From Bryoerythrophyllum caledonicum (taxonomy: Eukaryota; Streptophyta; Bryopsida; Pottiales; Pottiaceae): DNA of 64,000 nt. The notes beneath the pieces are model-generated. The model had not been told where the DNA came from, did no database searches, and saw nothing but the letters and a program-made list of their open reading frames with translations. The position numbers and the translations under genes are program-made. Positions 7,785-32,035 of this stretch are shown here, piece after piece (positions within the stretch are counted from its first letter, which is position 1; the number at the start of each line of letters is the position of its first letter). The DNA lies in assembly GCA_963971425.1 (NCBI GenBank), contig OZ020514.1, positions 46,653,527 through 46,717,526 of the forward strand. The letters are read 5' to 3'.

Positions 7785-8205
7785 AATAGATGTGATCTTA
7801 AGTAATATTAGGAGGAGCTCTGTGCAGACAATGTGAATACTAGAAAGAAATTTTGGAGTTAAGCGCGATTACAGCTTTAAGCTTGGTTTTTGGGTTCATC
7901 CGCCGATCACCAGCAGTCGACGGACGTCAGAAGCTAGTAGAGGCACTTCAGCGCAACTCATCAGCGCAAAAGTTGTGATACAAAATCGACTGTGTCTGTT
8001 GGGTGCCCGCCGACGAATGCTCAGTTCATTCTAGTGTAAGCCTATATTGTATTAGGTCTATTGCACAGAGGTGATAAGCAGAGTGTGTAGTGAGGTTTCT
8101 CAGATCATAGTGTCTCCAAACATCCTTCTATGTGGTGTACACTTGTCACTGTGGTCGTCGGCGGCCTGCCGATGAAGTCTTTGGCAGGTGGTCTGATTTT
8201 TCTTT
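7785..8205 (+). other. Junction of Ty3 copy 1 and unit A; 5' non-coding part of unit A
   Basis: There is no gene. Bases 7785-7856 are the tail behind ORF3. From about 7857 (AGTTAAGCGCGAT) the sequence matches unit B inverted (ending 29452), so this is the visible 5' limit of unit A. Two palindrome copies lie here (7998-8014 and 8157-8173). A pyrimidine stretch with TTGCGTAG (to about 8217) looks like an acceptor for the first recognisable exon. Compared with unit B, about 300 bases holding three further palindromes are missing. Confidence 0.55.
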
Positions 8206-9572
8206 ATGTTGCGTAGGACTGTAGTTCCAAATAAGCCAAAGTGGCTTGTCGGTAGTGCTGTGGGCCTCGAAGTGGACGTGGGCTCGCCGGATGACAGCAA
8301 GCCACAAGTCACATATGAAGTTCACCCACACTTAACGTTGTGGGGCATCACATGGAGAAAGGAGGTGATTGCCGAGTTCGGTATCAACGGGAATCACAAC
8401 GCAAAAACATTCGTGGGTGGAAGCCTGGTGTCTGTGCTTGAAATGAAAGAGGACCCGGAGGATGAGGAGAAAGTACGACTCCTAATTCACGTGAAGGTCA
8501 AAATGGCTGACGAAAACCCGGACATCATCGCAGTTCAAATTCTCTGGATGACCTGCACTCAAGAGCTATGCATCACTGCTCAGGAGAGCGGGATGCAGTT
8601 CCTCGGCGTGACTCCTGAAGACGATCCGGATTTGCTTACTTGTTTCGGAGAAGCAAAGGACTTCAGGGACGCGGAGAACTCCAGGGTCGGGATCATGATG
8701 GCCTCAAAGTCAAAGACGGTGAGGAAGCCCAGGAACTCCAGGAAAGCAGCTAGCGACGCTTGGACTGAAGTTGCTGGAACTCCCGACACCGGAGAGTCGA
8801 GTATGTAGGTGGTCAAGAAGAGGGCGTCAAAGAAGGAGCCGAAGGTGAAGTCCATCGCTGATGCGCTTTCATTTGCCAACCACCTCTCAGTCAAGACGAG
8901 TGGTCAGGAGCTGGACATCATGTACAAGGCGTTAGAGGGTGGTCTTAGCGCCTGTTATCCATTCGGACAGAACACGCTCCCAGCGAAGATTTCCTCCGAA
9001 AAAATTCATGTTGCTCCCGATTCGATGAAGTAAAGACCCATCATCGCGAAGCGCACTGAACAACTCGTGCTGTTCTATGGAGAATTGGGACCATGGCGGG
9101 CAAAGCCGCCTCTGTACTGTGTTCCTCTACGGGGTCTTCCCGGAACAAAAGAGAATGGGAGGGAGCTGCACAGGATCGAGCTTGTGCTGCCTCGGATTCC
9201 AGCATCCATAGACGTCGAGGGTGTGCTTGACGGAGTACACTACAAGTGGTGGAATTCTCCAACATGCCACTGGTACATCATTGGTGGCCAACACATGTAC
9301 ATGGCGTGCAAAACAGTGGCCGAGTTGGAGCCCGTGGATTTAGACAGGGCGAATTACTTCCTCGATCACAATATTATCCCATTGTGGTCGAGGGATCCGG
9401 AAACCTCGTGAAGATCTCCAACCTCTTGAACATCAAAATCAAGGACAAGAAAGCCGACGAGACCTTCGTGTCGCAACTCCGGAAGATGAGGGATAAGTGG
9501 ATCGAGCATGGTCGGCTCGACAGGAGGACCAACTACAAGAAATGGAAGATAATGTGTCACTTCACTAAGTAA
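8206..9572 (+). pseudogene. ParB/sulfiredoxin-like protein, unit A copy
   Basis: The translation runs through a basic, Lys-rich middle (SKKEPKVKS) to a conserved C-terminal part with WYIIGGQHMYMACK, which resembles the GxH(R) phosphate-binding box of ParB/Srx-type domains (pattern hhhhDGQHRhhA); proline and charged boxes precede it (VPLRGLPGTKENGRE). The biochemical role is unknown. In ParB and Srx families this fold binds nucleotide or phosphate. The frame has stops at 8806 (TAG) and 9031 (TAA), and a one-base deletion near 9400 moves the end to the frame that stops at 9572. Unit B has the homologue at 27443-28845 with different lesions. The start at 8206 is only the first ATG; an acceptor at about 8217 suggests the true exon begins there. 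The ParB assignment is by motif only. Confidence 0.5.
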
Positions 9573-9698
9573 TTTTGCTCTCCATTATTGACAATCTTAT
9601 GAACATGGTGGATTTAATCATTGATTATGTTTCGTCGGCGGGCAGCCGACAACATTGTGTTTGAGCTCATGTAAATGTCATCTTTATCATTTTACAAG
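9573..9698 (+). other. Probable intron with palindrome
   Basis: Separates the ParB-like exon from the next coding stretch. It contains the palindrome at 9634-9650 and ends with TTTTACAAG at about 9698. The inverted unit B copy keeps the same intron sequence and palindrome (27394-27410), but its donor reads AAACAA in place of AAGTAA. Confidence 0.5.
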
Positions 9699-10792
9699 AG
9701 TTGAGCAAGGAATACCTTGCAACACTGTTGGGGAAGGACTTCAAGACGGACACGTTGAAGTTGCTGCTTGTCTTTGCACCAGACAAATTTTACAACAAGT
9801 AGCAGGAAGTTTTCGACTCATGGGATCAAGGCACCCTGATTGGTGAAGATGGGAAGAAGCCCTAAAACATCCTCAAAATTCCTCAAGGGGACCTCACCCT
9901 CCACGACCTTCAACACATTCTCGCCCTCCGGGATTAGGAATCCATGAAGCTTGCTCATGAAATCCTCGCAAAGAAGGTATACTTGAAGGTAACTGGGGGG
10001 CGCGACAAGGATGTAGAAGGAGTGTCGCTCAAATCCTGGTGTCAGGATAAGAAGATGGAATACATCATCAAGAACGAGCTCATGCTGATGTATTGGAAGT
10101 ATCCTTTGAAGAAGGCTGGCGATAATACCTACTCACCTTGGTCGGTTGAAGAATACATGCAGCAGGTAGAAGAAAAGGGCATTAGCAACGATCCATTTAT
10201 GAACATCAGACGCGAGCGGGAGCTTAGTGATCTGGGGAAGGCCTATCTCAAAGGGAAGTACAGCGGGATTACACCAAGTACCACCCTAGCTCCAGCGGAG
10301 TTCTATGCGGCGTTACGGAAGTATGCCCTCAACTGCAACGATGTTGTAGATGAGTATAGTGTCCGTCACAAAGTTTGGGTTGCACAAGAGCTTGAGGAAG
10401 TCGTGAGCTTGATCGATGAACTCGGACTCTTCAATCTTGAGAAGGCGGAGCGCGAGATGTTCATCGTGTTCGGCTTCGATAAGGGCGGGGATCCGATCTA
10501 CTGCAACAAGGATGGGCTCAAGGCTGTTGTAGAGAGGGTGTTGCGGGGTGAGGGGGATGACAGGGAAATCTACGCCCCTTCATTCTTCATCACAGTTGAC
10601 AAGTTCAATTTTGTGATTGAGACTGAATGCAGTTCAAAGAAGTTGGATTGCGCAGTCTACACCATCCGCTACCTTCCAGACTCCAGCGGTAGATTCACTC
10701 CCTCCGCCATGGACGAGAGACCCGTCTTGCATGTCGACATCCTCTTCAACCAGCCTGGAGCTCTACCGGACCGCCTGTGCCAGTTTCAAAAG
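9699..10792 (+). pseudogene. Conserved unknown exon downstream of the ParB-like exon (unit A)
   Basis: Unrecognised. One frame is open from an acceptor at about 9698 to a donor AAAG|GTAAGT at 10793, with stops near 9808, 9862 and 9935 and an uninterrupted run from the ATG at 9944. The protein is mixed alpha/beta-like with conserved SVRHKVWVAQELEEVV, FNLEKAEREMFIVFGFDKGG and ERPVLHVDILFNQPGA segments. Unit B retains only the distal part (about 26908-27300 and 22930-23043), with roughly 600 bases deleted. It lies in the same orientation as the ParB-like exon and is probably another exon of the same gene. Confidence 0.5.
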
Positions 10793-10884
10793 GTAAGTGG
10801 ACTGACGAAGCCTCTCAGTCCACTCTACGACGACGCTGCCTCGCCCTTGGCTGAGAGTTGGGCTCGAGATGAATGCCATCCAAG

Positions 10885-11110
10885 CTTAGAATTGCTCTCA
10901 TCAATTTTGCAACCCACACTGGTGAAGGGCGACTCAAGTCTGACCGTCTTCAACACTTGGGGTAGAGGCAACGTGACTGCATTGGCCTTGGTAAGTCACC
11001 TCTCTTTCATCATATCATTCTGTCTTTCCATCACCTTCTTGTGTTCGTTGGCGGCCCGCGGATGAGACAATTTTCATTTTGATTATTGACCGACATTGTT
11101 TGTCCAATAG
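10885..11110 (+). other. Small exon plus intron with palindrome (unit A)
   Basis: A short exon (about 10885-10990) translates to a segment with INFATHTGEGRLKSDRLQHL, also seen in unit B (22664-22855, minus strand). The intron is 10991-11110 (TTG|GTAAGT to CCAATAG). Its palindrome starts 57 bases after the donor. Exon and intron are both alignable between A and B, including both splice sites. Confidence 0.55.
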
Positions 11111-11928
11111 CGACACAAGGCGACAGTGATCGAGTTTATTCGCGAGGAGGCGGAGGTTGCTGTCGCGATGGAGCGAGTGCAGGCAATGTCCTTCCTACTG
11201 GGCAGAGCTCACTCGCTTGTGCTTACGCTTCCAGCTGAGCCCGTTGTGGGACCCAACGAGGTGGAGCCGCCAATTGTGAAGGTCAATCAATATTTCCTTG
11301 TCCTACGTGTAAACGCTGTGTTGATCGCACACTATATAGGCAAGGACGGAAAGTGGCATACCAAATTCAGGCCGAAGTTGGCTGAGTTTATCAAATTCTA
11401 CGTGGATAACTTTACAATTGTGCTTTGGAGTAGGGAAAGTCAGCCTAAGCACGCTGCCTAATTGGTAGCCCTCTGAGGCCAATACCTGGTTCTTATAGTA
11501 GTCAAACACGTATATGATAATTTCTACTGTGATGTAGCTAAGAAACTGGTAGGAATTTGGAACGTATTCCTCATAAGACTGTCTATATTGTTTTTGAACC
11601 GAAAGGCAATGTTTGGATCTGGCGCGAATAGTCAAAACACCCTTCTGCTTGACAACTCTCCTTACATGAATGTCAGGAATAGTCCTCTGAATGTAATCCA
11701 TCCGATGACATTCACCCTAGAGTCAATGGAAACGGAGAAGAACGCCGTTCTTTCCGGGGTCGTTAACTACCTTTCTGCTTTGTTAGAGTCAAACTTGCAT
11801 GTACCCGAATATATTCGAAGGAATCTCGGCTCTAGATGTCCTTGACTTTTCCCGGTGACCCACAATGGGAGGATTTTGTTTTGGCGTACCCAAGTTGTAG
11901 ACGTCCCCCTCGTACTATTGCATAGTAA
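11111..11928 (+). pseudogene. FCP1/NIF-phosphatase-like domain 1 (unit A)
   Basis: Follows an acceptor at 11110. After a helical leader (EFIREEAEVAVAMERVQ) comes an FCP1-homology-like domain: YFLVLRVNAVLI, FRPKLAEFIKFYVDNFTIVLW, an HVYDNFYCDV stretch and LLLDNSPYMNVRNSP. FCP1/SCP/NIF enzymes dephosphorylate proteins such as the RNA polymerase II tail through a DxDxT box. Here that box reads VLRVNAVL, with the nucleophilic Asp gone, so catalysis is unlikely even before decay. A stop near 11459, a stop at 11843 and a one-base loss near 11850 break it; tandem TAG TAA (11923-11928) marks the ancestral end. Unit B has the homologue at 19560-20334. Confidence 0.65.
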
Positions 11929-12098
11929 TTCGGCGTCGGCGGGCAGCCAACGCCGAAATCGCCCAATTTTGCCAGGCTTTGACATTCACGTCTGTAACAC
12001 TATTTTTCCTCGAAATAAAATTTCTCACAATAATCACAGTCTCCCTTGCACATGGCTCATCACTTATTGTATGCATTTGAATCAACTTTTCCATTCAG

Positions 12099-13234
12099 GT
12101 GGATTGTCCTGTCGAGGAGATTGAGGAGCTTGTTCCGATTTCAAAAAACCCGGTTATCATTATACTCGTTGACAGCTCACCGGAGAGACCGAGTCGTCCC
12201 CGATTGATGGCTCGTAGTCAACGGCTTCCCTCCACAACATTCGTCCTTCCCACTACTTTTGTATGGAAGCTGACGATCGAGACTTTGCACCATCACCGCT
12301 GGAGGAGGTGGGGCCCGAAGGTGTCCACCGTGTTTCTGTCGAATCCGTTGCGGACCACGGTATCAACCGAGAAGGCGACATGCAAGCCTTCGCCTCTGAC
12401 AGAGCTTGGCGTGGGGCGGTCGGAGTAGTTGGCGGGCCGCTGACAGCTACCCCATACCCGGCTATTTGCGTAAGCTCCGAAGTTGTTCCAAGGAACATTG
12501 AAGTGGGTCCTTCAAGATTCTACCTCGTCCTAGAAGTTAGAGGGCTTCTAATGGATGAACGATTTGATTATCGGGGAAAAGATAAGAAGCCCCATTATTA
12601 TCAAAAACCTAGGCCGGGTCTTCTTGAGTTCCTGACAGTCTACTAGTCCAACTTCGGATTGGCATCCTGGTCCACCGAGAAATATCAACCCATGAACAGA
12701 CACATGGGTTACTTGCGCGAGGTGTACCTTGAACTACGTAAGGACTTCGGAGAGATGACCAACGGGTTTTGTGATATATCTGCCTGGACGAATCCCAAAA
12801 CAATGAAGTGCGACATGCTGCTGAAGCGACTTCCTTGTCTTTTTCGAGATAAACGCTATCTTATTGGGCCAGACACAAATGAACGGAACACGCTTCTAAT
12901 CGATCATTATTCCCTCCGTAATATCCTAAATGATCCTTTTAATGGAGTGCATCCTTCAATATTCACATACTCTCCCCCAGAACACACACTGCCTGGAGGA
13001 CAAACGTATCTTCAGAGTATGCTGATTTCCTGGCTTCAGGAACTATTGGAGTCCAGATTCAGCGTCCACGACTACTACAGATTGAACTCCGATTTGAGTC
13101 AGCGTCGTATTTTCTCGGGAACAGCGGTCCACAACAAATACCGGGAAGTCCTCTCTTCTTACCAAGAGGGCTTCGACAAGCCAGGTTGTCTAGATGAGGT
13201 AATGGCCAAGTTGACAAACACTCCCCCACCTTAG
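12099..13234 (+). pseudogene. FCP1/NIF-phosphatase-like domain 2 (unit A)
   Basis: Begins after a good acceptor (TTCCATTCAG, 12098). The domain core runs from 12263 in one frame: FYLVLEVRGLLM in place of the LVLDxDGTL box, RPGLLEFL, an ASWS strand and NTLLIDHYSLRNILNDPFN. A single TAG at 12644, where unit B has CAG (Gln), is a C-to-T change. The C-terminal extension (SWLQELLESRFSVHDYYRLN) corresponds to the ALLESNLHVPEYIRRN part of domain 1, so the domains are ancient duplicates. The nucleophile Asp is replaced by Glu. The unit B counterpart (18592-19391) is truncated inside this domain. Confidence 0.65.
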
Positions 13235-13537
13235 AGAGCCATATTTTCACGAAGGGCCTCCCGAAAAGGCACCCACTTTAATTCACTGGACTCTCGCCCA
13301 TAGTAATACATTGATAAATGTTATAAACAAATTCATGTAATTACTTTTATATATTCATCTCAAATTTTGCTAAACTACTTTTCTCTGTTTTATATTCCTT
13401 GCATATTTCATTTGAGTGGTTTGTTTCTTATCCATCTACTTATTGTACTTTCCTCCGACGACGGCCCGCCGACGTGTTTTACTTCTCACTTCCACCCGTA
13501 GTTTGCATCATGACAATGTTTCTTTAACATTTTCCAG

Positions 13538-14179
13538 GGAACATCCTTCCATTTCAGATGCTTGCACGCTCCTCCATCATCGATTCAAAAATGTATTGTA
13601 CTATGCGTCAATGGTCTTCTTTGCTATGTGGACCCTTGCAAGCCGATATCTTCTGATTTTCCTCATGGGAATGTTGTCTGGAGGCCGGGCCTAAAGAAAC
13701 TATTCGAAATGTTGCTTCTCCGCTTCAATATCGGGCTCTGGTCAACGATGCCTCTAAACAAGTTAAAGCCGCTCTTGTTGCACATTCTTCCGGAAGGAGT
13801 CTTTCAATGTTTGTCGTTTGTTTATAGCATTAGTGACTTAGCTAATAGTTCCAAGTTTCCTTGGAGCTACAAAACATCGTCGACGCTCTACAAGAAGAAG
13901 CAATCTAGACATGTTTGCAAGCCCCACCAAGTATTGTTTGTCGACGTTGACCTTAAGCCGCTCCGACATACCCTCGACTGGATGTGCTATATCCCTTGGC
14001 CGTTCCGTGGTCATTTGACCTCTCCAACCGAAGACGGAGTAATCCTGAATGTGGCAACCGACATCATTCCGCTCATCTTCCCCCCCCATAGATTTTCATC
14101 CGTCCCTGAATATATGACGCAGGTTGAACGCCCGGGGCAAGCGCATTCGGCGGTTATGCATGTGCGCAAGTATGGGTGA
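13538..14179 (+). pseudogene. FCP1/NIF-phosphatase-like domain 3 (unit A)
   Basis: Starts after TTTTCCAG (acceptor at 13537), behind an intron carrying the palindrome at 13457-13473. Core motifs: IVLCVNGLLCYV (DxNG-like box with Cys for Asp), VWRPGLKKLFEMLLLRFNIGLWS and VLFVDVDLKPLRH. The open frame from 13562 to the TGA at 14179 has no internal stop, the best preserved of the three. It is not present in unit B, which ends before it. Partner or substrate unknown. Confidence 0.6.
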
Positions 14180-15202
14180 GCCGTCGTCAGATGGTCAAAA
14201 GTTGAATGATAGGTCTTTCTCTATCGGTGGCCCGCCGACTGTCCTTCGTCGAGCATATTACCTTCGAATCCTCTGATGTCATACTGACAATCCCTAGCGC
14301 TTTCTATATCACATGTTTTTTTATTCACAGTGTTCTAGAACTTATCTCGCTAGATAGACTAAGAGGTTTTTATTAGTAGAATTAGTGATTTGTAAAAGAC
14401 GTTGTTTTCTCTACTAGGTCTATTTTGTTAGTCAGTAGGCAGCCGACATTGTACTTATCCTCCTAATAATTCATGTGTTCATGTTCTCTGGCTGCATCTT
14501 CGTTGTCTTGCCACTGCCGTTCAATGTTTTCGACTCCATACTCAGAACCCATGTTCGACAATTCCACCCACATATCTTTTATCTTCCGCAATTTTTTTTT
14601 GTTTATATTTCCTTGGATTTAATTATTACAGTAGAAAAGGTTTAAGCAAATTGATGCAATTTGTTGTTCTTGTCTTTGATGGGCTGTCAGCCGACAATCA
14701 TGTACTGTGATTTTTCAAATAATATTGACGTCATTGTATAAACTTTCTAAACCGGTATGTATGATCTGGAATTTGATAACCACACCCGCAACCATTGGGC
14801 GCCACAGGAATCTACGACTGTGGTAGATTTTTTGAACTACATCAACGCTCTGGTAACATTTTTTCCCGAAACCCTCTCTAGAATGGGTGAAGCCCATTTT
14901 CATGAGTCAGCTGTCCGCCGATGAAATGGTCTCGCCATTCTTATTTCTGGAATTTTTTTTTCCACATTTAGTAAAAAAAAATTGTTGAGTGGCTATCGGG
15001 TTTGTCCCTTTTCACTTGATGTCCGCTCCGATGATGCCCTTGGGATTGACTCTTCATTGATCGATATTGACATTGAAGCATCAGACGACATCAACCGTTC
15101 CGATAGGGTATACGAGGACAATAATAATCATGGTACCTGTAGTTATTTGGAGGGATCCAAATAGGAGACTGAAATGGCCGCTAGAAGTGACAATGATATC
15201 TC
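14180..15202 (+). other. Non-coding stretch with four palindromes
   Basis: No supported gene. Palindromes start at 14223, 14431, 14679 and 14906, the densest cluster in the window (spacing about 210-250 bases). A short open stretch (14982-15164) rich in Asp could be a 5' exon of the following gene but has no independent support. Confidence 0.45.
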
Positions 15203-17804
15203 ATCGACGGGCCGCCGACAACATAATTATCACTCTTTTGAGAATCCATCCGCTACCCTCGACGGTTTATGTGATGCGAATTCGTTCCCAGACCGACCAC
15301 AATGGCGGAACAAGTACTGCCACCTCCTAGATGACAACTTCGCTTCTATTGGACGTGCCATGATTCAAGTGTGCTTGCCACATGAGGCATGCAATTCAAA
15401 AAATTTATGAGACATTGATGTTGGGGTCCTCTTTGTCTCAGAGGACGAGGATCTTTATATAACAACAATGCGCTGGCCATTAACTCACACGTGCCTTGAA
15501 GGTGGTCCACTTCTTTCTGAGTGCCTTACATTCTGCTCAACGCATAGTCCAGCTGCATGTGAGTATGACGGGCTTGATGGTGTGCCTAAGGATCCTTATA
15601 GGGGCGTTCGTCCGAAGCCTTTGCCAAAGGACGATGTGTTGGTCTCCAAGTTCCGGCGCCTTCAAAGCCCGGATAAGTGCCGCCTCGTTAGCGCGAGAAG
15701 GTGTTGTAAGAAACGATGCTGCTAGTTATTTCGTTGGGAAGACTGCCGCAAGATTCGAAGGAAGTACTATGCGTCAAGCTTTGAACAACGACGCGAAATG
15801 GCCTATGCTGTTACGGACCAGCTTCATCAAATTCCTGGATTCCGAAAATTATACATCACCCTTATTGGTGTCGATGTTTGTGAAGTTGCTTGGTATACCA
15901 TTCACGGCGTCTCAAAGTCCGCATACTACAACTACAAATATGATTCAAAGATCGGTCACGTTCATGGCAGCCACGGTAACGCAAGCACTATGCGGCCTAG
16001 GCCTCCCACCGTTCAGGCTCGTGGTACCATATCCAACATTATCAACGACAGTGCGGACTAGATGCCAAATGAGTTCCGTGTCATCGGAAACAAGAGGGTT
16101 GCCGCATTGAAGGTTCTTCCCGCGGCCATGAATTGGAATCACATACGTGACATGGCCAACTTAGTAAGTATTGTCATTACTTTCCCCTATCTTTGTATTT
16201 AGCATGGTTTGTCATCTTTGTCCAGATGTATGTCATCGATTGTAGAATCTAAAGGAGATCCGTTCCCGAATACTCCTCCCGGTAGATCGCAAGTCCCGCT
16301 TCCTCGGAAGTTGTTTCTTCAGCTTGATAACTCCGCCAAGGATAACAAGAATCGGTTCCTCATGGCGTTTTGTTCGCTTCTTACAGCTAGAAAAATCTTC
16401 AAAGAGGTCATTGTGGGATTCTTGATTGTTGGCCACACACATGAGGACATTGACGCACACTTTAGTTACCTATCAAAACTCATCAAACAGAAGAATACTT
16501 ATTGTTTGGCTGACCTCATAAAAGCCTTCATGGACTCGTAGAAGACTGTCGTGTTCATTCTGGAACTTGTCCAAAAGGTTGCGGACTTTTAAGAGTTATA
16601 TTGCTGGATATCATCATGACGGGAGTAACAAGATTGTCGGACAGAGAGAGATGCACCTATTCAAGTTTTACGTGGAGGAGGAAGGAGATGACGCTCGATG
16701 GCCGGTCATGAGATACAAGAAGTGTGCGACTGATTCATCCTGGATTCCTCCAGGTGAGCCAGTCAAGGTGGAAACACTCCTATTCCTATCTCTCTTTGGC
16801 TTTCTCCACCCTCGTCGTCTTCCATCTCGGTCGGTGGCCCGCCGATGGACCTAAACGTTTTTGTTAAGAGTTCGTGTTCTCATTCAATTTGTGCCACTAA
16901 CTCTTATTGGAATCCTATAGGTAAGCCTGTCAAGATGTGGACCACGGATGAGCACGGAAATCCACGCCTACCTGTTGGAGATCCAAAGCCAGTCCCATTT
17001 AAGTCCCTCTGGAGAGACGTCCGAGTTAACCAGAACAAGAGAAACCTAGAGAAGGAGGTTGCTCAGCCCACTGCAGGCAGTGAGAAGCAATCCTTCATCA
17101 AGAACGGAATTGCCAAATATATTCAGTTCTGGAAGACCGGCATGTCCTGGGACAAGCGTTATGCAGCAGATATGGCCCCCTACATTTTGTATTGGGAGCA
17201 TATCCATCAACTTATTTCAAGTCCCCTACCCCCAAATTGGGAGTCTTTTCAAGAAGGATTTTGGCCAACTTCAAACTGGATTCGCGATCATGCTCGCGGA
17301 TCTACGTTGCCCGATGACGTCATTGGAATTCCGGACATTACCTCTGAGGATGACCGCGACGCATATCCTTTCTCTGGCCCTAAATTGAGCCGTCCAAAGC
17401 AATCGTTCAATCCATTTCGAGACGTTTTACTCGGTGATTTCGTTCTCTGCCGTCCTAGCAATGGTCATTACCTTCCCGTGTAGATGGGCCGAGTTCTTGA
17501 ATGCGTTAATCTGACACCCGGAGATTGCTACGGGAATTTCAAAGTCGAATGGTGGATGCCCATGTCAGGGAAGAACGAATCAAAGAAGATTGTCGCGAGG
17601 GAATGCTGGACCAGGAGATGGCAAAGGGAACCTTGTCTTTCAGAGGTACAAAACTGCAAAATTGTTCTTTACTCGCACCGCTATCTGTCGCACACTAAGA
17701 AAGGCCCTCCTAGTTCTCACCGTATTTCGCCTGAGGCAGCAAGCGCTGCAATTGCAACTTTGGAGGCTAGTAGCATCTCAATCAATTGTGGAGATGAGGA
17801 TTGA
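15203..17804 (+). pseudogene. DUF7869-like putative transposase (unit A)
   Basis: N-terminal exon about 15230-16162: paired cysteines (RCCKKRCC), a YYASSFEQRREMAY helix, then GVDVCEVAWYTIHGVSKSAYY, a GHVHGSHGN box and MPNEFRVIG, the order known from DUF7869 proteins. After a small intron (about 16163-16224) come LFLQLDNSAKDNKNRFL and FLIVGHTHEDIDAHF, taken as the second and third acidic motifs of an RNase H-like fold; a transposase role is inference. The middle segment with the usual C-x2-C and first acidic motif appears missing. The last exon (16921-17804) ends with a WWMP reader-like module. Lesions: TAG near 15723, 16059, 16539 and 17481, and an extra T near 16594. The last two also occur in unit C. 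Confidence 0.6.
16754..16920 (+). other. 167-nt intron bounded by a direct repeat across both splice sites
   Basis: The donor lies in CTCCAG|GTGAGCC and the acceptor in CCTATAG|GTAAGCC. The roughly 30-40 bases around the donor are repeated, with mismatches, around the acceptor, so the end of the upstream exon reappears at the intron end and the start of the downstream exon reappears at the intron start. The palindrome (16830-16846) sits mid-intron. The unit C intron (30261-30427) is also 167 nt and shows the same duplication. Confidence 0.6.
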
Positions 17805-21583: not shown

Positions 21584-22603
21584 TCATAGGAGGAGCAGTA
21601 GGCGAAAGCCCTGTGTTGGGATGATCAGCAGAGTCACGGGACATCGAGAGTTCTTTTGGGGTGAAACTGGCGCTACCCCCCCTCTTTGACTTTCGCAATC
21701 CCTTTTACGGAGGTAGAGGCGATCGCTTCCGAGATGGCATCTCCTTGTTCTTCTTGGTATTGCTCCTTTGTGACGGCACCCCCGAGCCTCCGAGGAAACG
21801 CCACCTTCTTCCAACGGTGCCTTGTTGTTATGCGAATGGCTCTGTTGCTTCCTTTGCGGTGGCTCGGTGCGGGCAAAACTTTGGGGAGTCTAGCCTCCAC
21901 TGATTTTGGAAGCGGCAACGTGAGTACTCCGATTTGGAGGAATTATCCTCACATTTGGTTTCTTCTTCTTGCTCACCACTATTGGCATCGGTGCATGATG
22001 TAGAACATTGCCGGATTTCAAAGCAGTGGACGCGCTTGGCTGTGAAGAACTTGAAGGATTCTCACGCGGTTCAGGCCCACCAGATAGAGCTTGGTTTGGT
22101 GCAGGCGGCGTCGGCCGGCCGCCGTCTCCAGGGTCGATGGAGGTCACAGTTCGAGGAGGGATGAAGGCGCCTTGTGAGCGCACGACGGTTTCATTCGGAG
22201 GCTGTGGGAACAAGGGGACGGTCATCTCGCTTGGTGCAGGGGGACGGTCATCGCGCCGCGGCTCCACCTCTGGTCGCACACCTGTTGGTGCCTTTCCTCC
22301 GTTCTGAGGTCATATTAGGTGTGCTTCATCGAGACGAACACCTAAGTCGGCTACTGTGAGTAGCCTGTCGTTCTGCACGTTGCCGAGGAAAAAGCTATCG
22401 TCCATCGCATTGTCGCACATCTCGGTCCCATTCTCTGAGTCCTGGTCGATTTCAGTCAATGTGACCACCTCCTTGGGTTCCACAGCCGGCTCAGCTGGAA
22501 GTGTTAGCACAAGCGAGTGACCTCTTCCCGGTAGGAAGGATATAGCCTGCACTCGCTCTATCGCGACAACAACCTCTGCCTCCTCACAAACAAATTTGAT
22601 CAC
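21584..22603 (-). pseudogene. Proline-rich linker region of the unit B gene
   Basis: Begins with the helical EEAEVVVAIERVQAISFL segment shared with unit A (11126) and continues in one frame through a low-complexity Pro/Ser/Arg-rich stretch (RPPAPSEMTVPLFPQPP, SKKKKPNVR) to about 21890, with one stop near 22310. Beyond that the frame is lost (21584-21890). Unit A jumps directly from the helical segment to FCP1-like domain 1, so it seems to have lost this part. Likely a disordered linker; no function can be assigned. Confidence 0.45.
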
Positions 22604-22663
22604 TGTCGCTTTGTGTCGCTGTTGGACAAATAGTCTAAGTCAATGATCAGTATGAAAACTATC

Positions 22664-23043
22664 TTATCGGCAAGCCGCCGACGGACACGAGAAGGTGAAG
22701 GAAAGAAGGAATGAATGGATGAAGGAGAGGTGATTTACCAAGGCCAATGCAGCCTGTTGCCTCCACCTCAAGTGTTGAAGACGGTCAGACTTGAGCCGCC
22801 CTTCACCAGTGTGGGTTGCAAAATTGATGAGAGCAACCCTAAACTTGGACGGCATTCATCTCCTACCCAACTTTCAGCCGAGGCCGAGGCAGCATTGTCA
22901 TAGAATGGACAGAGAAGCTTCGTCAATCTAGTTACCTTTTGGAGTTGGCGCAAGCGGTCCCGTGGAGCTCCGGGCTGGTTAAAGAAGATGCCGACATGCA
23001 CGATGGGTCTCTCATCCATGGCGGAGGGAGTAAATTTACCGCT
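22664..23043 (-). pseudogene. Unit B exons flanking the 3.86-kb insertion (3' side)
   Basis: Minus-strand homologue of 10700-10990 in unit A: MDERPIVHVGIFFNQPGAP, then donor-like GTAACT, then NFATHTGEGRLKSDRLQHL and the donor TTG|GTAAATC. The intron with a palindrome at 22666-22682 follows. Reading stops at 23043, where the inserted element begins. Confidence 0.55.
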
Positions 23044-24341
23044 TGTTGCAGTTTGTAGAGTGAGTATTCCTCCGGATAGCACTTAATTGGAGCTAAATGT
23101 ATCCAAACTATCCGCTCTAAATTTGTTCCCACAGAGATCTATTGTTCCTTTCCCAAATGATAAGTATAACTAACTAATACCACCCTATTCTCTATTGGTT
23201 AGCGTTGTTATTCATCCCTTGATCTACTCATCCGGATCCTTTTGGGGTCCGGATGTCCCTTCTTTCAACTTCCGGATCCTTCCGGAATCCGGACAGTTTC
23301 AGACGGAGTTTTCATCCGGAGTTTTTAACCGAGTGGCCGGGTACCACTGATCATGTTTTGTGTAAGTGGCCGGAATCTCCACTGTCTTGTGACTTAAAGT
23401 GGCTAGACACCCACTGCCCCGAGACTTACAGTGGCTGGACACCCACTCTTCCTACTTCGCTAACCGGTAGTTGGTTTGTTGCTTCCGGATTTGCACACTC
23501 ACATCATCTGGAAGGCCTTCCGGATACGGTCACTCAAAGGTTTGTCCGGACTACAACAACATTCCGGTTGATGCTCAATGGTTCTATTGGATGAGTGTGG
23601 TAGATTTGCTCATTGACGCCCTTCTAGACATACACCTCAGGCTTTTTCCTCTATCCTAAAGGAAAATTCCGGCGGCAACCAGAATCCGGGTTCACACCGA
23701 TTCTCCGTGCCCTAAGAGCTACTAGGCTCACCCCTGTAGTACCTTCCCTCCCCCTCCAGGCTATATTCGGTCCCTGTGGATCGTCAAACTCTACCTAACC
23801 TCTCCTTCAGCTCTTGCGGGCGATCTCCCAAAGCAAGCCTCAACCGGTTGTACTAGGTGCAAACCTTGCAACACTTCACACATAAGAACTAAATTCACTA
23901 CACATCAACCACAATGGATCTTATTCCCTCTTAACAAAATGGTTTTCCATCACCATAGATTCAAGAAGAGAAAATATACTAATAGAAAATACTCTTCATG
24001 AAAGAGAAAATAAGACGAGGAGCCGACTAAGGCTCATCTATTAAGTACTAACCACTAACTTCTGAACCTAAAATCCTATCCTATCTGCTCGAAATCCGGA
24101 AAATCCTATCCTAAAAGTAAAAGGGATCTTATCGCTAGAAATCCGGAATTCAAAACTGAGATCCGGAATTTCTGGATCTGAGATCCGATTTTCTCGGATC
24201 TAACAAAAAACCTAGTTTAGGTTTCTTCTAGCCTATGGTGTGATAGCCGGGTGCAACCTTGAGCCCCATCATTAGTCGCTATCAAACTAAAAGGACTAGA
24301 AGACCTATCTATGGTATAACCTGATTCTTCTTCTTACTGCT

Positions 24342-26512
24342 TCAGCGCATAGGGGTTACCTCTGCTAGTGCTGCGCTGGCTTCCGAATGTGCCGGAATGG
24401 TAGCTGACGGCTCTGGGACGGAGGCAGGCACCTGCTCCTTCGGTCCGGAAGGCGTTTCCGGATCTTCTGCTGTTATTGTTCGGGCTCGTGGAGCAGTTGT
24501 CCGGACTTGAAGATTAGGAAGGTCCCGAAAGCTTCCGCTGGGGCTGACGTCCATGGGCATCGCTGCAAAGCCTCTTGGTAAAGGGGCCGTCTTTGGTTGA
24601 ACCGGAGAGGGAGACTCCGACGGATTCCAGAAAGGCAACGACAAAATCTACAAGGGATCTCCTGGCATCTCCTGCCACTTCTTTATACTCTCGGTGCTCG
24701 AGAAGGATACTCCATTCTAACTCATTGGAGAGTTGAAATCCGGAGTCCCTACGAGGTCGTTGAAGCCTCTGGTAGGGGTCTGAGGTGTCTCGGCCGTAGG
24801 TCTGAGTGAAGAGCATGCTGCCGATCCGGATGGAGATCCAATTGCCGGTTTGGATGGAGATCCGGATGGCCCTGTAGTGGTTCCGGATGGACTTGCTGTA
24901 TCCGGAGCCTTAGGTGCTCCTCCCGGAACTGGAACCTCTGGTGCCGGTGGGGCTGCGACAGTGAGATTCTTCACAAGTTCCTACATCTTGCTCCAGGTGC
25001 CCTCCATCATCCGGCTGTGGTCCAGGAGGAACCGAATGATCTGCCCCCTATTGAGCTTCTCATTCTGGATCAGAATTCTACGTACCTACCTCTTCCATGT
25101 CTGTCTAAACTCTCAGTGTAGAGAAGAGCCATGTTGACGGTGTCTACTAGAAAATCTAGAGCTGCGCAAATCTCTGTCAAGGTTTGAGTGGTTGCCCGGA
25201 CCTTCGCTTCCACCGTAGCTCTCGTTTGCTGGGCTGCATCTCCCGCGGCCTTCGCCTGCTGCACCTGCTTCCAGAGCAGGATGTTGATCTGGGTGAAGTT
25301 AGCGTTTTCCTGCTCCAGCTTCTTGATCGAGCTCTCCTTGGCCTTCATCCTGGTGAGTCGCGGAATGAGGTCATCAGAATTCTACGTACCTACCTCTTCC
25401 ATGATGGCCAGGATCATGGCGTGCCGTGCCCGGATTTCCCCTTCCTGGATCCTGGTGCGCTAGACGATATGCTTGCAGAGCTCCAAAACATCCACCGGAA
25501 TATTGCCAATGATATTTGGGGCCTAGCTCGGCCCCGGTTCTGACCCGGTCGTGAACCGTTCGTATTCATCTTCTTCGGGTGGTGGTGCCTCGGTCGGGCT
25601 CTGAGTCTCTACGGCTGCCAGAGACTGGCTGGGTCCGGCGGCTTCCGGAATCTTCTGAACTGAACGACTCCGTTTCCGGGATCTCCTGATGAGAAGAGGG
25701 GACGACGACTTCTCCGTCTCAGAGTCTTCCGAAACTTTCTACTCCTCCTCCGTCTGCATTCCTCCGTATGACTGGATGGTGAGCAGGTTGTCGTACTCGT
25801 CCTGCTCCTCCGGACTCAGCATCTTCTGCTTTGCATACATGTGGGCTACGTAGGTTGAGAGGATTGTTGGAATTTTCAGGGCTTTTGGCAGGTTCTTGAC
25901 CATGCGGTCTATCTGCTCATCTATTATGGCTCCCTAGTCTACGGACAGCTTCCCTCTCATCGATCCTAGTATCAGGCTAGCTAGCTTTTCCACTATCCGT
26001 TTAGGTTTCTTTGGGTGGAAGATAGGATTAAAGAACGCCATTACTAACCTCGCATCCGGATCGACGAGGTCGCTGAGTACGTACTCGTCTTTAAGGTTTG
26101 CCTTTGACAGGAACTCCCCCTTCAAGATGTTGACGTCGCGCGCCGCCACCTTGATCGTCTCGGGCCGGAGACCATAGGTGTCTCTCCAGATTGATGTGGT
26201 CCAGACCTCCGGATGCGCCCAAATGCGCCCCTTGTACTGGCTTGGTGGCTTTCCTAGGAGCTCCGCCACCATGGCCTCGCTCTGGAAAGCCTAGGGTACC
26301 CCAAGGAGACCTTTGCACCCCATTATCTTGAGGTAGCTCTCCAAAACCCTATAGTTCTTGTCCGGGGTTGGCCACTCCGGCGTCACCTTCTGCAGTAGCA
26401 GGGTTCCACCTGCTGGAGCCTTGTTGTTCTTCCCCGCCTTCCGGACCCACCTCTCCGTGAACTTGCGCCTTGCAATGGTGACTGGAAACTCTGCACGCAC
26501 TGACCTCACCAA
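24342..26512 (-). pseudogene. Gene of the 3.86-kb insertion: unknown coiled-coil protein
   Basis: Unrecognised. One minus-strand frame runs from about 26512 to 25400 with four TAG stops (26291, 25934, about 25742, about 25461) and no frameshift. N-terminal globular part (KFTERWVRKAGKNNK, KGRIWAHPEVWTTSIWRDTYG, VDPDARLVMAFFNP), then an acidic and Ser-rich linker with a basic RRSRKRSRS patch, then after probable introns a coiled coil (SSIKKLEQENANFTQINILL) at 25070-25348 and a Pro/Gly-rich tail. The layout (globular, acidic linker, coiled coil, tail) is like Ty3 ORF3, but I saw no clear sequence match. The start is uncertain. Confidence 0.5.
25069..25403. repeat. Perfect 31-bp direct repeat 304 bp apart at two exon/intron borders
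   Basis: The same 31 bases occur at 25069-25099 and 25373-25403. On the minus strand each reads ATGGAAGAG|GTAGGTACG, a plausible donor, so the same exon end and intron start occur twice, flanking the coiled-coil exon. This suggests a recent local duplication or conversion. Confidence 0.8.
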
Positions 26513-26907
26513 GTCCCTCGTGTCTACGCTAACTCTACACTACAGAATCACAAGAGAACAAAGCGCGGAAGAGAAGGAAACAATGAGCACAGAAAACCCT
26601 AAAAGATTCGCTCCCAAGGCTGGCAGTTGCGTTATATATCTGACGCGCTGTATGGATATCGTTACGCGTCATAATGGTGGTTCCGGATCCGGCTGACGCC
26701 GTACTCCGATTTCCGCAACTTCCAGGAAAACGCTGTAATTGCCTCTTTTAAAGATTCTGGCTCAGCATAAAAACCTTATTTCTTCTAGGAATCTATTTAC
26801 ACTACTATGGCTGAACTAATGACCTAATTTTTTTTAATTTTTCTTCGTTTCCTTCCGGATTTAGTGTTAAGATCCGGAAGCTAGTAGGAACGCCTTCCCA
26901 CACCGCT

Positions 26908-27300
26908 AGAGTCTGGAAGGTAGCGGATAGTGTGGACTGTGCAATCAAGCTTCTTCGAACAACATTATGTCTCAATAAAAAAATTAGACTCGTCGTCTGT
27001 GATGAAGACTGAAAGGGCAAAAAGTTCCATGTCATCTCCCTCACCCCGCAACACCTTCTCTGCAACAGCCTTGAGCCCGTTTTTGTTGCAGTACATCAGA
27101 ACCCCGCACTTATTGAAGCCAAACACGATGAACATCTCGAGCGCCGCCTTTTCAAGATTGAAGACTCCGGGTTCGTCGATCTGGCTCACGACGTCGTCAA
27201 GCTTCTGCGCAACCCAAACTTCATGACAGACTTTATACTCATCTACAACATTACTGCAGCTGAGGGCATACTTCCCACATTCTTGGCCTCCAAGACATTG
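26908..27300 (-). pseudogene. Unit B exon piece, 5' side of the insertion
   Basis: Homologue of about 10350-10690 in unit A: SQIDEPGVFNLEKAALEMFIVFGFNK and YCNKNGLKAVAEKVLRGEGDD. A TAA near 26963 and a frame change before the insertion break it. Upstream of about 27300 unit B jumps to the end of the ParB-like intron, missing about 600 bases present in unit A. Confidence 0.55.
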
Positions 27301-27442
27301 TTGTGAAGGTTCTCAACAATGTTGCAAGGCATTCCTTGTAGAACTTTTGCACAATGACATGGAATACATTTACATGAGCTCAACTACAATGTTGTTGGCT
27401 GGCCGTCGACGAAATATAATCAATAATTTAATTCCGCCATGC

Positions 27443-28845
27443 TCATGAGATTGTTAATAATGGAGAGCAAAATTGTTTAATGAAGTGACACATTACCTTC
27501 CATTTCTTGTAGTTGGTCCTCTTGTCGAGCCAACCATGCTCGATCCACTGATCCCTCATCTTCCGGAGCAGCGATTTGAAGGTCTCCTCCGCTTTCTTGT
27601 CCTTGATTTCAATGTTCAAGAGGTTGGAGATCTTCACGAGGTTTTCCGAATCCCTTGACCACAATGGGATAATATCGTGTTTGAGGAAGTAATTTGCCCT
27701 GTCCGAATCCAGGAGCTCCAACTCGCCCACTGCTTTGCATGCCAGGTACGTGTGTTGGCCACCAACGATGTACCAATGGCATGTTGGAGAATTCCACCAT
27801 TTATAGTGTGCTCCGTCAAGCACAACCTCGACGTCCATGGATGCATGAATCCTCGGCAACACAAGCTCGATCGCGTGCAGCTCCCTCCCATTCTCTTTTG
27901 TTCCCGGAGGACCCCGCAGAGGAACACAAGACAGAGGCGGCTTTGCCCGCCATGGTCCTAATCCTCTATAGAACAGCACAAGTTGTTCAGTGCGCTTCGC
28001 GATGATGGGTCTACACTTCATCAAATCAGGAGCAACATGAATTTTTGCAGAGGAAATCTTTGTTGGGAGCGTATTCTGCCCGAATGGATAACAGGCGCTA
28101 AGACCATCCTTTAATGCCTTGTACATGATGTCCAGCTCCTGACCACTCGTCTTGACCGACAGTTGGTTGGCAAATCAAAGTGCATCGGCCACGGACTTCA
28201 CCTTCGGCTCTTTCTTTGATGCCCACTACTTGGACACCTGCAAACTCGACTCTCCGGTGTCGAGAGTTCGAGCAATTTCAGTCCGAGCGTTGCTAGCTGC
28301 TTTCCTGGATTTCCTGGGCTTCCTCACCGTCTTCGACTTTAAAACCGTCATGATCCCGGCCCTGGAGTTCTTCGCGTCCCTGAAGTCTTTTGCTTCTCCA
28401 AAACAGGTAAGCAAATCCTTCCTATCTTTTGGAGTCATGTCAATGACTTGCATCCCGCTTTCCTGAGTAGCAATGCAAAGCTCTTGAGTGCAGGTCATCT
28501 AGGAAACTCGAACCGCGATGATGCCGGGTTTTCATCAGCCATTTTGACCTTCACCTGAATTAGGAGTCGCACTTTCTCCTCGTCCTCCGGGTCCTCGTTC
28601 ATGTCAAGCATGGACACCAGGCTCCCACCCACAAACGTTTCAGAGTTGTGGTTCCCGTTGATACCCAACTCGGCAACCACCTCCTTTCTCCATGTGATGA
28701 CCCACGACGTTAACTGTGGGTGAACCTCACATGTGACTCGTGGCTTACAATCAGCCGGCCATCCCACGTCCACTTTGAGGTCTACAACACTGCCGACGAG
28801 CCACTTCGGCTTATTTGGAATTACAGTCCCGCACAACATGAACAA
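27443..28845 (-). pseudogene. ParB/sulfiredoxin-like protein, unit B copy
   Basis: Homologue of 8206-9572. Pieces: 28495-28845 (VIPNKPKWLVGSVVDLKVDVG, FVGGSLVSMLDMNEDPEDEE), 28226-28498, and an intact 227-residue stretch at 27443-28126 with WYIVGGQHTYLACK and the distal RDSENLVKISNLLNIEIKDK. A one-base deletion near 28510 shifts the frame and stops separate the pieces. In contrast to unit A, the C-terminal third including the GGQH box is a single open frame, which supports the frame order inferred for A. Confidence 0.5.
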
Positions 28846-29452
28846 AGACGTTGATCAAACCACCTGCTATAGACTTCATCAGCGGGCCGCTGACGACCAC
28901 AGTGACAAGTGTATACCACATAAAAGGATGTTTGGAGACTTATTCACAGGAAAACCTCACTACACACTTTGCTGATCACCTCAGTGCGATAGACTGAATA
29001 CAACAAAGGCTTTTACTAGACTGAACTCAGCAATTGTCGGCGGGCCGCCGACGGACACAATCAAATGTGTATCACAAAATAACATTCTTGAAGACCCTAT
29101 AACGTATTCACTCTAAAACCTGACTACATCCCCTTGTGATAATTTCTGTACGAAAGTTCAAATACAACAATAAATTTAACTACACCGAACACAACATCCA
29201 TCGACGGGCCGCCAACAAAACACCATAAACTACAACCGCATCTCTAACACGGAACTCGAAATCCATCAATTGGCCGCCAACGGTGATTATGTACATACCT
29301 CTGCATTGTCGCCATTTTGTCGGCGGGTGGAAATTACTCCTTGGCTGATGGCTTGTGCTCAAGCGCCTCTGCTAGCCTCCGACAACCGCCCGCTAGTGAT
29401 GATCGACCGATGGACCCAAACTCTAAGCTTGAAGCCGTTATCGCGCTTAACT
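28846..29452 (-). other. 5' non-coding region of unit B
   Basis: No long gene. Four clear palindromes (28878, 29036, 29200, 29265) and a half copy at 29319. On the minus strand an ATG at about 29306 followed by a donor-like GAG|GTATGT could be a tiny first exon, with a palindrome just behind the donor. The distal end (TAAGCGCGAT, rc of 29441-29450) is the limit of homology with unit A; the flanking CGCTTA/TAAGCG bases form a short inverted repeat. Confidence 0.5.
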
Positions 29453-29997
29453 AAGCGAGAACACAAAATCAAGAAGAGCACAATTACAAAATGACCAGAA
29501 ATAGGAAGACAACAGGGTTTTGTACTCGGATTCGGTGGACCGTCGTAGCCGTTCGATCTTCATTGGAAGGATGACGGACGGCCAAGACTTCATGCTCGGG
29601 TGCTAAGCCTGATCCATGTACCAATTCCCAAGTGACATGCCATCTCGAAGTGTCGTCTTGGATAATAACATAAAAACTAGGGCTTTGGGGCCAAGATACC
29701 TCAAATTGAAGTGACATCATTAATGTTGCCTCGGTTATCATTTGGTCTAGGGTATAGGGTCCTACACCTACAATGTCGCTTCAACTGATTTGATTTCATC
29801 TTGACACCTCGATCCATTTTGGCTCTGCAAAATTTGGCGTGCTCTTGACAACCCTTAAGCGCGTGTCGTTGATTTCAAATTTGAAGTTCGCGCGCCATAA
29901 AGTTGGCATGATGGTGAGGATATGAATTCAACCCCTGGAACTCCCTCATCATTTCTAGACTCTCACGCCTCCTATTCAATGCTCTGCCTTCTCACCG
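29453..29997. other. Gene-free gap between units B and C
   Basis: I see no supported gene. A short minus ORF (29484-29741) has no recognisable motif. The word TTAAGCGCG, also present at the 5' limit of units A and B, occurs again near 29858, so this gap may belong to the same element family. Confidence 0.3.
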
Positions 29998-32035
29998 AAG
30001 AATACTTACAGTTTGGTTGACCTCATGAAAGCCTTCATGGACTCGCAGAAGACTGTCGCGTTCATTCTGGAACTTGTCCAAGAGGTTGCAGACTTTTAAG
30101 AGTTATATTGATGGATATCATCATGACGGCAGTAACAACATTGTGGGACTGGAAGAGATGCACCTATTCAAGTTTTACGTGTAGGAGGAAGGAGATGACG
30201 CTAGATGGCTGGTCATGAGATACAAGAAGTGTGCGACTGATTCATCTTGGCTTCCTCCAAGTAAGCCATTCACGGTGGAAATGCTCTTATTTCCATCTCC
30301 CTTTCACTTTCTCCACCTTTGTCGTCTACCTTCTCCGTTGGTGGCCTGCCGATGGACCTAAACGTTTTTGCTATAAGTTCATGTTCTCATTTAATTTATG
30401 CAACTGACTCTCCTTGGACTCCTTCAGGTAAGCCTGTCAAGATGTGGACCGCGGATGAGCACGGAAATCCACGCCTTCCTATTGGAGATCCAAAGCTAGT
30501 CCCATTTAACCCCCTCTGGAGAGACGTTCGAGTTGACCAGAACAAAAGAAACCTTGAGAAGGAGGTTGCTCGGCCCACTGCAGGCAGCGAGAAGCAATCC
30601 TTCATCAAGAACGGAATTGCCAAATATATTCAGTTTTGGAAGACCGGCATGTCCCGGGACAAGAGATATGCAGAGGATATGGCCCCCTGCATTTTGTACT
30701 TATTTCAAGTCCCCTACCCCCAAACCGGGAGTCTCTCCAGGAAAGGTTCAAGCCTTCTTCAAACAGGATTTGCGATCATGCTCGCTGCTCTGCATCGCCC
30801 GATGACGTCATTGGAATTCGAGACATTACCTCTGAGGATGACCGCGACGCATATTCTTTCTCTGGCCCTAAACTGAGCCGTCGAAAGCAGTCGTTCAATC
30901 CATTTCGAGACGTTTTAATTGGTGATTTCGTCCTCTGCCGTCCTAGTAACGGTCATTACCTTCCCGTGTAGATGGGCCGAGTTCTTGAATGCGTTAATCT
31001 GACATCCGGAGATTGCTACGGGAATTTCAAAGTCGAATGGTGGATGCCCATGTCAGGGAAGAACGAATCAAAGAAGATTGTTGCGAGGGAATGCTGGACC
31101 AGGAGATGGCAAAGGGAACCTTGTCTTTCAGAGGTACAAAACTGCAAAATTGTTCTTTACTCGCACCGCTATCCGTCGCACACTATGAAAGGCCCTCTCG
31201 GTTTTCACCGTATTCCGCCTGAGGCAGTGAGCGCTGCAATTGCAACTCTGGAGGCTAATGGCATCTCAGTCAATAAGAGTCAATTCTTATTTCAATGGGC
31301 TGCCAATCGATGGGTTGTTGCTTAATCCTAATCATAGGACTCAATTGTTGTCAGATCGCACTGTAGGTACTATTCTTGGTTATTAGATGGCGAGGTCTCT
31401 TTTTGGATAGAAGAGAATATTCTTGTCGGCTCCCTGCCGACTGCGGCTATACGCTAGACTCAACATATGTAAACATTTTGACTATTTCTCATATATGCAA
31501 TCGTTTTCGTTTGTCAAAGTGTTGTCAACCGCTGGCTTCATTGTTTTGTATCTAGCTCATTTCTAATCATATCCAGCCTCCTTGTGCTTACAAACCACCC
31601 TCCCCTATCTAATGCATGTCTCCACTAGTCGTAAGATTTGAGCCCTTTATCCAAAAGAATTTTATGCTTATGATCGTGGACTTTGAGGATGACGCCATCC
31701 TCCATCACAGTTTGTTTCACCTTATCCTCGAACACTACGTCTCGACTGCTCTCTGACACTTGCAATTGAATTCCTTCTACTATATCTCTACATTACAAAA
31801 CACTATTGTTATTACGGAAGACGAAGAGTCAAGGTCGTCAACGCACCCTCATGGTCGGCCGCCCCCCAAGAACAGAAGTCACGTAACATTTTAACAATCC
31901 TCCGTAGATTCTGAATATCCTTCACCTATACACATTGTATATTTTTGGACAATCTAGTAGGTGTTCATGGTCGTCACAAGTATCTAATTTGGCCCACAAT
32001 TGATTTTTTGTCCACATTTTGTTAAATATCCGTTA
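29998..32035 (+). mobile_element. Unit C: direct copy of the 3' end of unit A
   Basis: Matches unit A from about 16490 to 18568 in the same orientation, including the 167-nt intron, the extra T near 30093, the TAG at 30969-30971 and the palindromes (30337, 31425, weak 31741). It starts within the coding region at GAAGAATACTTA, so it is 5'-truncated, and ends at CCGTTA (32035), the same last base as unit A. Confidence 0.75.
30010..31325 (+). pseudogene. DUF7869-like putative transposase, C-terminal part (unit C)
   Basis: Homologue of 16500-17804. The reading contains LMKAFMDSQKTVAFILELV (where unit A has TAG, C has CAG), then after the frame change KSYIDGYHHDGSN, the intron (30261-30427), and the last exon with GKPVKMWTADEHGNPRLP, GDFVLCRPSNGHYLPV, TAG, MGRVLECV and FKVEWWMP. 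A deletion of about 20 bases near 30698 breaks the middle. The TAG sits where related proteins usually have Trp. The tail SVNKSQFLFQWAANRWVVA differs from unit A. Confidence 0.6.

Follow-up and report, generated by a model that had tools for sequence, protein, structure and literature searches.

What function could a short palindrome have that recurs along the whole length of a plant transposon? The question is raised by a stretch of 64,000 nucleotides from the moss Bryoerythrophyllum caledonicum (contig OZ020514.1, positions 46,653,527 to 46,717,526), hereafter called the window, in which a 17-nt palindrome of the form GTCGGC-N5-GCCGAC (word I) is repeated within the remains of a DNA transposon whose gene C encodes a DUF7869 protein. 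The reading to which we give a slightly better than even chance, judging from sequence comparison, is that such palindromes are subfamily-specific DNA addresses co-evolving with a candidate element-encoded binding protein, which would have a VANC-like anti-silencing role or would regulate the element's own genes.

Word I is confined to one part of the window. At up to three mismatches there are 35 strand-matches in the whole window, all of them in 7998-31441, against 0.03 expected from dinucleotide shuffles. Collapsing the strands gives 22 loci at up to three mismatches and 27 at up to four, all held by the interval 7998-31870 and none outside it. These counts bear out two claims of a first-pass annotation made from the letters alone, namely that about 27 copies exist and that the other elements of the window lack the word. 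At up to five mismatches, 31 loci are found inside the interval and three outside. A model-free count of k-mers ranks CCGCCGAC first in the interval, with 15 copies against 0.37 expected. A weight matrix derived from 29 selected loci gives every one of them at least 14.7 bits, and the top scores outside the interval, 14.6 and 13.1 bits, both fall in end repeats of a hAT-like element; this gap is partly due to construction, because the matrix includes two loci with five mismatches (14679 and 17816) and one picked by eye (29265), and a decayed locus inside the interval, at 31854, overlaps the background with 13.4 bits. Rfam, at its gathering threshold, detects nothing in the window, and exact GTCGGCTGCCCGCCGAC is present once in each of eight viral contigs, which is taken as background.

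The genome searched comprises 437 Mb in 894 contigs. A near-complete element of subfamily Ia (L029+L030, 1138-16668) is 15,531 bp long and is bounded by 24-bp inverted repeats, AACGGATATTTAACTAAATGTGGA, that are perfect in this copy; target duplications of 4 bp were found in three copies (AGTA, AATA and AATT). Gene C occupies one strand, and genes A and B, in this order, occupy the opposite one; the recognised coding blocks of C and A are about 2.3 kb apart, a gap that may include 5' exons of C. The only Pfam match of gene C is DUF7869 (PF25273, 117.6 bits, cut-off 26), and by sequence C is the probable transposase. Among named proteins, its closest relatives come from the mosses Ceratodon purpureus and Physcomitrium patens and rank above those of the liverwort Riccia; no related loci were found in viral and prokaryote collections. 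Gene B is NIF/FCP1-like (PF03031), with 49.8 bits and E 4e-13 in subfamily II (cut-off 21.8) and 20.2-21.1 bits, below the cut-off, in three pieces from the window. Gene A, which contains a GGQH segment, has no recognised domain in Pfam scans of its pieces, no relatives in the protein database in searches limited by protein length, and no match in PDB for its profile A5. By eye, the GGQH segment resembles ParB/Srx or DGQHR folds, a resemblance only; ParB recognises palindromic parS sites of similar length. Membership of gene A in the ParB family was considered and rejected, Pfam ParB_N having no match in the genome at E up to 1, while 11 of 14 control genomes gave matches.

Words scoring at least 14 bits number 25, 24 and 25 in three near-complete copies (L017+L018, L027+L028 and L029+L030, respectively). 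According to our own location classes, the 25 loci of L029+L030 are distributed as follows: four behind C, two in C introns, one in C exon 1, six between the C and A coding blocks, six in A-B introns or at unit boundaries, two in A-B coding linkers, and four behind B4. By the same classes 17 of the 25 are internal, the nearer end being as much as about 7.6 kb away, and words are also present near both ends (1306-1839 and 15907-16590). At the majority level, 15 of 300 arm bases differ from GTCGGC/GCCGAC; the 6-base arms are fully complementary in 14 of the 25 loci and the central five bases are variable. The two half-sites are separated by 11 bp centre to centre, approximately one helical turn.

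The first-pass annotation held that the word occurs about once per intron and in no recognised exon. The former is true where splice signals are clear, since the GT-AG introns C intron 1 and A3/AB contain one copy each and C3/C4 fits (A2/A3 is less clear), but many copies are non-intronic. The latter does not hold for some loci: the one at 15203 falls within a block that aligns with moss proteins, and those at 12428/19045 and 22110 lie in open frames, the 12428/19045 site being in an open frame also in L029+L030 and in the diverged L023. The B-unit boundaries that carry the word may be introns or 3' ends.

Evidence for the address reading comes from sister subfamilies. A genome search with the DUF7869 protein listed 106 exon matches, the best candidates of which were scored, and two groups matched at about 50-52% (subfamilies II and III); two copies of each were fetched, with the A-B side for one of each. 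Subfamilies I, II and III share a common layout, with A and B on one strand and C on the other, and each has its own palindrome: word II is CCGGAGATCTCCGG and word III comprises TCGTAGGATCCTACGA-like sites, both being even-length dyads without a loop. Word II (up to two mismatches) has 13 and 10 sites in the two subfamily-II stretches, word III (up to three mismatches) 12 and 11 in the two subfamily-III stretches, and neither occurs elsewhere among 24 stretches. The same separation was observed in L041, L042 and eight more subfamily-I stretches. In all 34 stretches, word I is absent at up to four mismatches from the six of subfamilies II and III, and words II and III are absent from the 28 of subfamily I and from each other's stretches; the 28 were fetched around exact word I, which by this choice is present in all 20 subfamily-I stretches of the set of 24, and are informative only for the lack of words II and III.

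The replacement of one word by another can be followed at an equivalent place. C intron 1 has exactly one word of the own type in Ia, Ib, II and III, at +75, +75, +77 and +122 from the donor; the lengths of these introns are 175, 139, 205 and 257 bases, respectively. Subfamily Ib keeps word I, its coding blocks being mostly 25-61% identical to those of Ia at the amino acid level (one block of 28 residues is 79% identical).

Genome-wide counts point in the same direction. Word I has 1649 forward matches at up to two mismatches against 11 for the reversed pattern, word II 2718 exact matches against three for its reversed control, and word III 1098 at up to one mismatch against 30 for the control. 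The first 50 word II sites listed form, by eye, four clusters of 4-15 kb, and a third group-II copy (C1:4304453-4306318) has seven exact word II sites within about 2 kb. All eight places cut automatically around exact word I align to the Ia element, three of them in a copy already studied. Among the matches listed, C1 has 82 places with exact word I in 65.2 Mb and C2, at a lower density, 11 in 40.3 Mb. Word III also forms a short array with 28-bp spacing (L042 6447-6615) and another with a period of about 120 bp (L038 4165-4537), and telomere-like (AACCCTA)n tracts are present between A and C in both sister-subfamily elements (L037 2971-3120 and L038 2826-2963).

Traces of word I can also be seen in proteins. 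The 12 closest DUF7869 proteins, named moss and unnamed metagenome sequences, contain eight peptides that are exact back-translations of word I and 12 within one mismatch, in five of the 12 proteins, while 60 shuffles gave means of 0.0 and 0.35, respectively; the peptides had been spotted before the test and are not 12 independent events, because there are homologous pairs among them. Some occur in an apparent read-through intron (P0001 and P0009 after MANA, P0002 before VNDKCNQ). In 36 more distant DUF7869 relatives no back-translation was found at up to one mismatch.

Taken as addresses, the palindromes would work as follows. Each would be a double-stranded DNA site fit for a dimeric DNA-binding protein, and the words lie along the element where they are tolerated: in introns and 3' regions, in the gap that separates the divergent genes, and in coding linkers. 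The reader protein would most likely be encoded by the element itself and co-evolve with the word, and sister subfamilies would in this way come to have different words at equivalent places. Bound along the whole element, the reader would maintain transcription, or re-establish it, in the face of silencing by the host, in the manner of VANC on VANDAL elements, or would regulate the element's own genes. Binding by a protein, its origin from the element and its anti-silencing effect are what we infer, with gene A as the first candidate for the reader gene and the N-terminal part of C as the second. A binding site for an element-encoded protein had been one of three options in the first-pass annotation. 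Sequence comparison favours it because the word is found at the DNA level in introns, intergenic DNA, 3' regions and coding linkers, in both orientations, and because, in the stretches examined, it is confined to one subfamily and replaced in its sisters.

The closest known parallel is the VANDAL/VANC system. VANC21 is reported to recognise YAGTATTAY in the introns of VANDAL21 and in its intergenic and terminal noncoding DNA, VANC6 to use other motifs, and methylation to be lost (PMC5735166, PMC10398659). The moss element is likewise a multi-gene DNA transposon with a short motif that differs among related subfamilies, occupies the same kinds of noncoding DNA, and is dense in the element and rare elsewhere, the separation here being seen in the stretches fetched. 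However, no MULE transposase VANA is present here, gene C matching Pfam DUF7869 only, and Pfam scans of the A, B and C pieces gave no match to DUF1985 or DUF287, the VANC domains. In addition, the palindromes are 14-17 nt long instead of the 8-9-nt oriented motifs described for VANDAL, they are mostly one per intron instead of in tandem arrays, and some are in coding linkers. The moss element is, by analogy, like VANC targets in its anatomy, but it is not a VANDAL member. Certain fungal DNA transposons carry TET/JBP genes that are thought to counter silencing (PMC12730594); in that case an enzyme and not a sequence address is involved, and no TET/JBP match turned up in the Pfam scans of the pieces.

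In the literature searched, VANDAL was the only case found of motifs throughout an element that are read by a self-encoded anti-silencing protein, and among open-licence PubMed Central papers neither DUF7869 elements nor palindromes of this kind turned up. If the address reading is true, the moss element would provide a second example: its transposase is unrelated, its palindromes are longer and nearly perfect, and a single genome contains three subfamily words. The way in which transposons direct anti-silencing to themselves could then be studied by comparison. There are many sites, they are exact and they can be tested, and each protein-DNA pair would supply a natural reader specific for one sequence.

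Several results weigh against the address reading. Overall, the word is no better conserved than its surroundings, neither between pairs within the window (141/170 positions in the word, 2514/2927 in flanks) nor among 12 copies (3629/3822 and 16672/17588). Loss of CpG is lower in the word (110/1745) than at other noncoding CpGs (608/6797, p 3e-4), coding CpGs (691/8597, p 0.014) and close flanks (118/1377, p 0.018), but the difference is modest and less clear with respect to the close flanks, the copies compared have a common history, and loci were selected in the reference according to their score. A similar tendency is seen at non-CpG positions (83/2077 lost in comparison with 798/16211, p 0.064), so lower CpG loss need not mean methylation; it is weak support at best for a lower methylation of the word. 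Subfamilies II and III are each represented by two copies. The C introns 1 of Ia, Ib, II and III are not wholly unrelated, pairs scoring z 1.4-4.9 above shuffles once the word is excised, which indicates little to weak similarity. Words I and II are mostly dispersed, word I in mixed orientation, and only word III is arrayed, whereas VANC motifs form tandem arrays of the same orientation (PMC5735166). Besides, no DNA-binding domain was recognised in the scanned A, B and C pieces.

The address reading can be taken a step further, to self-addressing that arose independently of VANC: each subfamily of a large non-MULE DNA transposon lineage of mosses would mark its whole length with a private palindrome, and its own protein would protect or activate only its own kind. 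The reader would perhaps be protein A, with its GGQH segment and a possibly ParB-like fold, and other elements of the genome, among them the two element types of the window with the short palindromes TCCGGA and CTTAAG, may have converged on the same solution. We put this forward as a tentative proposal and rather doubt it; if it were true of the other elements too, private palindromic addresses would be a general trait of transposons in this genome.

Among the alternatives, the one that survives best is that the words are sites for the element's own transposase or an accessory protein acting in transposition, like the subterminal repeats of CACTA or hAT elements. CACTA elements (Spm/En, Tgmt*) have subterminal repeats bound by TNPA-like proteins (PMC2613891), and the words here are likewise a repeated family-specific motif that a self-encoded DNA-binding protein would plausibly read. 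The family-specific character of the words, the copies near both ends of L029+L030 and the GC-rich repeats seen by eye near the ends of the hAT-like element of the window would all suit such a role. However, the sites here extend along the whole 15.5 kb and are not restricted to the ends, 17 of 25 being internal, and subterminal repeats do not require intronic copies. The termini differ as well: no CACTA termini are present, and the duplications are of 4 bp, not 3 bp. The end repeats of the hAT-like element are the ordinary contrast to dispersed palindromes. Overall, we consider a role in transposition unlikely.

Quite unlikely, in our opinion, is that the element is driven by host transcription factors binding at the words. 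The half-site of word I, GCCGAC, is the DRE/CRT core of AP2/ERF proteins, and the gap that separates the recognised coding blocks of the divergent genes contains six of the 25 sites. Nevertheless, monomeric AP2 proteins need no paired half-sites at a fixed 5-nt spacing, and the sister subfamilies, devoid of word I in the stretches fetched, use other words, each of which would need a separate host factor.

It has also to be considered that the palindromes are a by-product, spread by mutation bias, by gene conversion or as relics of intron birth, and without present function. The decay of the word within copies, about as fast as that of its flanks, agrees with this view. Even so, word I is kept between Ia and Ib in spite of their divergence, peptides corresponding to it are found in moss proteins, and another uniform word replaces it at the equivalent place; a mere by-product is, for us, improbable indeed. 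The relic of intron origin that the first-pass annotation had proposed fits neither the non-intronic copies nor the presence of different palindromes in a homologous intron of different lineages.

The remaining option of that annotation was an RNA hairpin in the intron that aids splicing. Its statement that both arms vary together did not withstand a permutation test (160/232 arm pairs Watson-Crick, permutation mean 165.5, p 0.96). One copy in each intron with clear signals and the excess of G-U over A-C pairs in the sense strand (35 and 12) would suit an RNA helix; but the sense C-T:G-A ratio is no different from that of noncoding flanks (33:13 vs 67:47, p 0.15; between paired copies 14:8 vs 67:47, p 0.81), word I is of mixed orientation (14 sense, 9 anti, 6 tied), many copies lie outside introns, and words II and III, even in length, have no loop, all of which makes the hairpin extremely improbable.

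With respect to the window itself, the interval that carries the word had been taken for one multi-gene element. Comparison with the near-complete copies reveals instead two broken and rearranged paralogous copies. Copy 1 covers about 7861-18567, and its two halves have changed places or orientation; copy 2 (18568-32034) has suffered deletions and harbours a nested insertion. The A-B half of copy 1 (7861-14976, plus strand, left edge set by eye against about 29450) aligns in two blocks, 7973-11264 and 11264-14976, with L029+L030 7449-10720 and 12942-16660 at 89-90%. Its C half, with the DUF7869 gene (14987-18567, plus strand, blocks 14987-16221 and 16220-18567, DUF7869 E 6.6e-34), is inverted in comparison with near-complete elements and stops at the inverted repeat. 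Copy 2 has the native orientation, with A-B on the minus strand and a C remnant on the plus strand, and is recognised by alignment with L029+L030 and by the repeats I1-I14 and D1-D5. An unrelated insertion that is not part of the element (23043-26901), with its own TCCGGA motif, fills the gap between I7 and I3.

The genes of both copies are incomplete. Gene A of copy 1 (8212-10990, plus strand), a conserved GGQH protein with relatives in subfamilies II and III, is broken by stops and a frameshift, and a piece of it in copy 2 (27446-28174, minus strand) is an open frame of 243 aa. The B domains, NIF/FCP1-like, are located at 11111-14176 (plus strand) in copy 1, where one piece has a NIF E of 5.2e-4, and at 19804-21311 (minus strand) in copy 2, with E 2.6e-4 and 4.5e-4, all below the cut-off. 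Gene B holds several such domains (window 11270-14176; L041 2777-3496); by eye, its first catalytic aspartate looks replaced in the window copies, and L041 keeps DLNG, which we take to be the NIF/FCP1-like catalytic motif. The coding blocks of C, the probable transposase, were delimited by tblastn with DUF7869 relatives at 14982-17801 (plus strand) in copy 1 and, with the additional help of alignment to near-complete copies, at 29998-31274 (plus strand) in copy 2, where the 5' part of C is deleted. At positions 16059 and 16539 of the window, TAG stops stand in place of CAG in relatives or in the other copy, as CHG methylation and deamination would give in a plant.

The word I loci of the window, given here without strand, are based on mismatch scans and copy-to-copy pairing, and they are not all independent because 10 pairs between copies 1 and 2 are homologous; in two of these pairs one partner is decayed. 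Upstream of A, 7998-8014 pairs with 29036-29052 (a perfect 17-mer match, upstream of A in copy 2) and 8157-8173 with 28878-28894. Further pairs are formed by 9634-9650, in the probable A2/A3 intron, and 27394-27410; by 11047-11063, in the A3/AB intron, and 22666-22682; by 11935-11951, directly behind a B unit, and 19539-19555; and by 12428-12444, in the open frame VVGGPLT, and 19045-19061. On the C side, 16830-16846, in the C3/C4 intron, pairs with 30337-30353, and 3' of C 17955-17971 pairs with 31425-31441, while 17816-17832 (five mismatches) and 18271-18287 have decayed partners at 31285 and 31737. The remaining loci of copy 1 are 13457-13473, in the B3/B4 spacer or intron; 14223-14239, 14431-14447, 14679-14695 (five mismatches) and 14906-14922, 3' of B4; and 15203-15219, within C exon 1. 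Those of copy 2 are 20455-20471, behind a B unit with four mismatches; 21378-21394, at AB/B2; 22110-22126, in a proline-rich open frame (21893-22309); 29200-29216 and the decayed 29265-29281 (14.7 bits), upstream of A; and the outermost locus, 31854-31870, decayed and with four mismatches.

Although word I is missing from the other elements of the window, as the first-pass annotation stated, two of them have an enriched short palindrome of their own. In the insertion at 23041-26900 TCCGGA occurs 29 times, i.e., 7.5 per kb against 0.28 elsewhere (P 4e-12, one test out of 960); a coding stretch similar to this insertion recurs, by eye, in L023 9152-10000. A Ty3/gypsy-type element (window 1-4300) has 13 copies of CTTAAG, of which 11 fall within 2899-3512 (P 4e-6, again one test out of 960). 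Finally, the hAT-like element, with DUF659 at 39.5 kb, shows by eye its GC-rich repeats near both ends, at 38700-38930 and 46140-46330.

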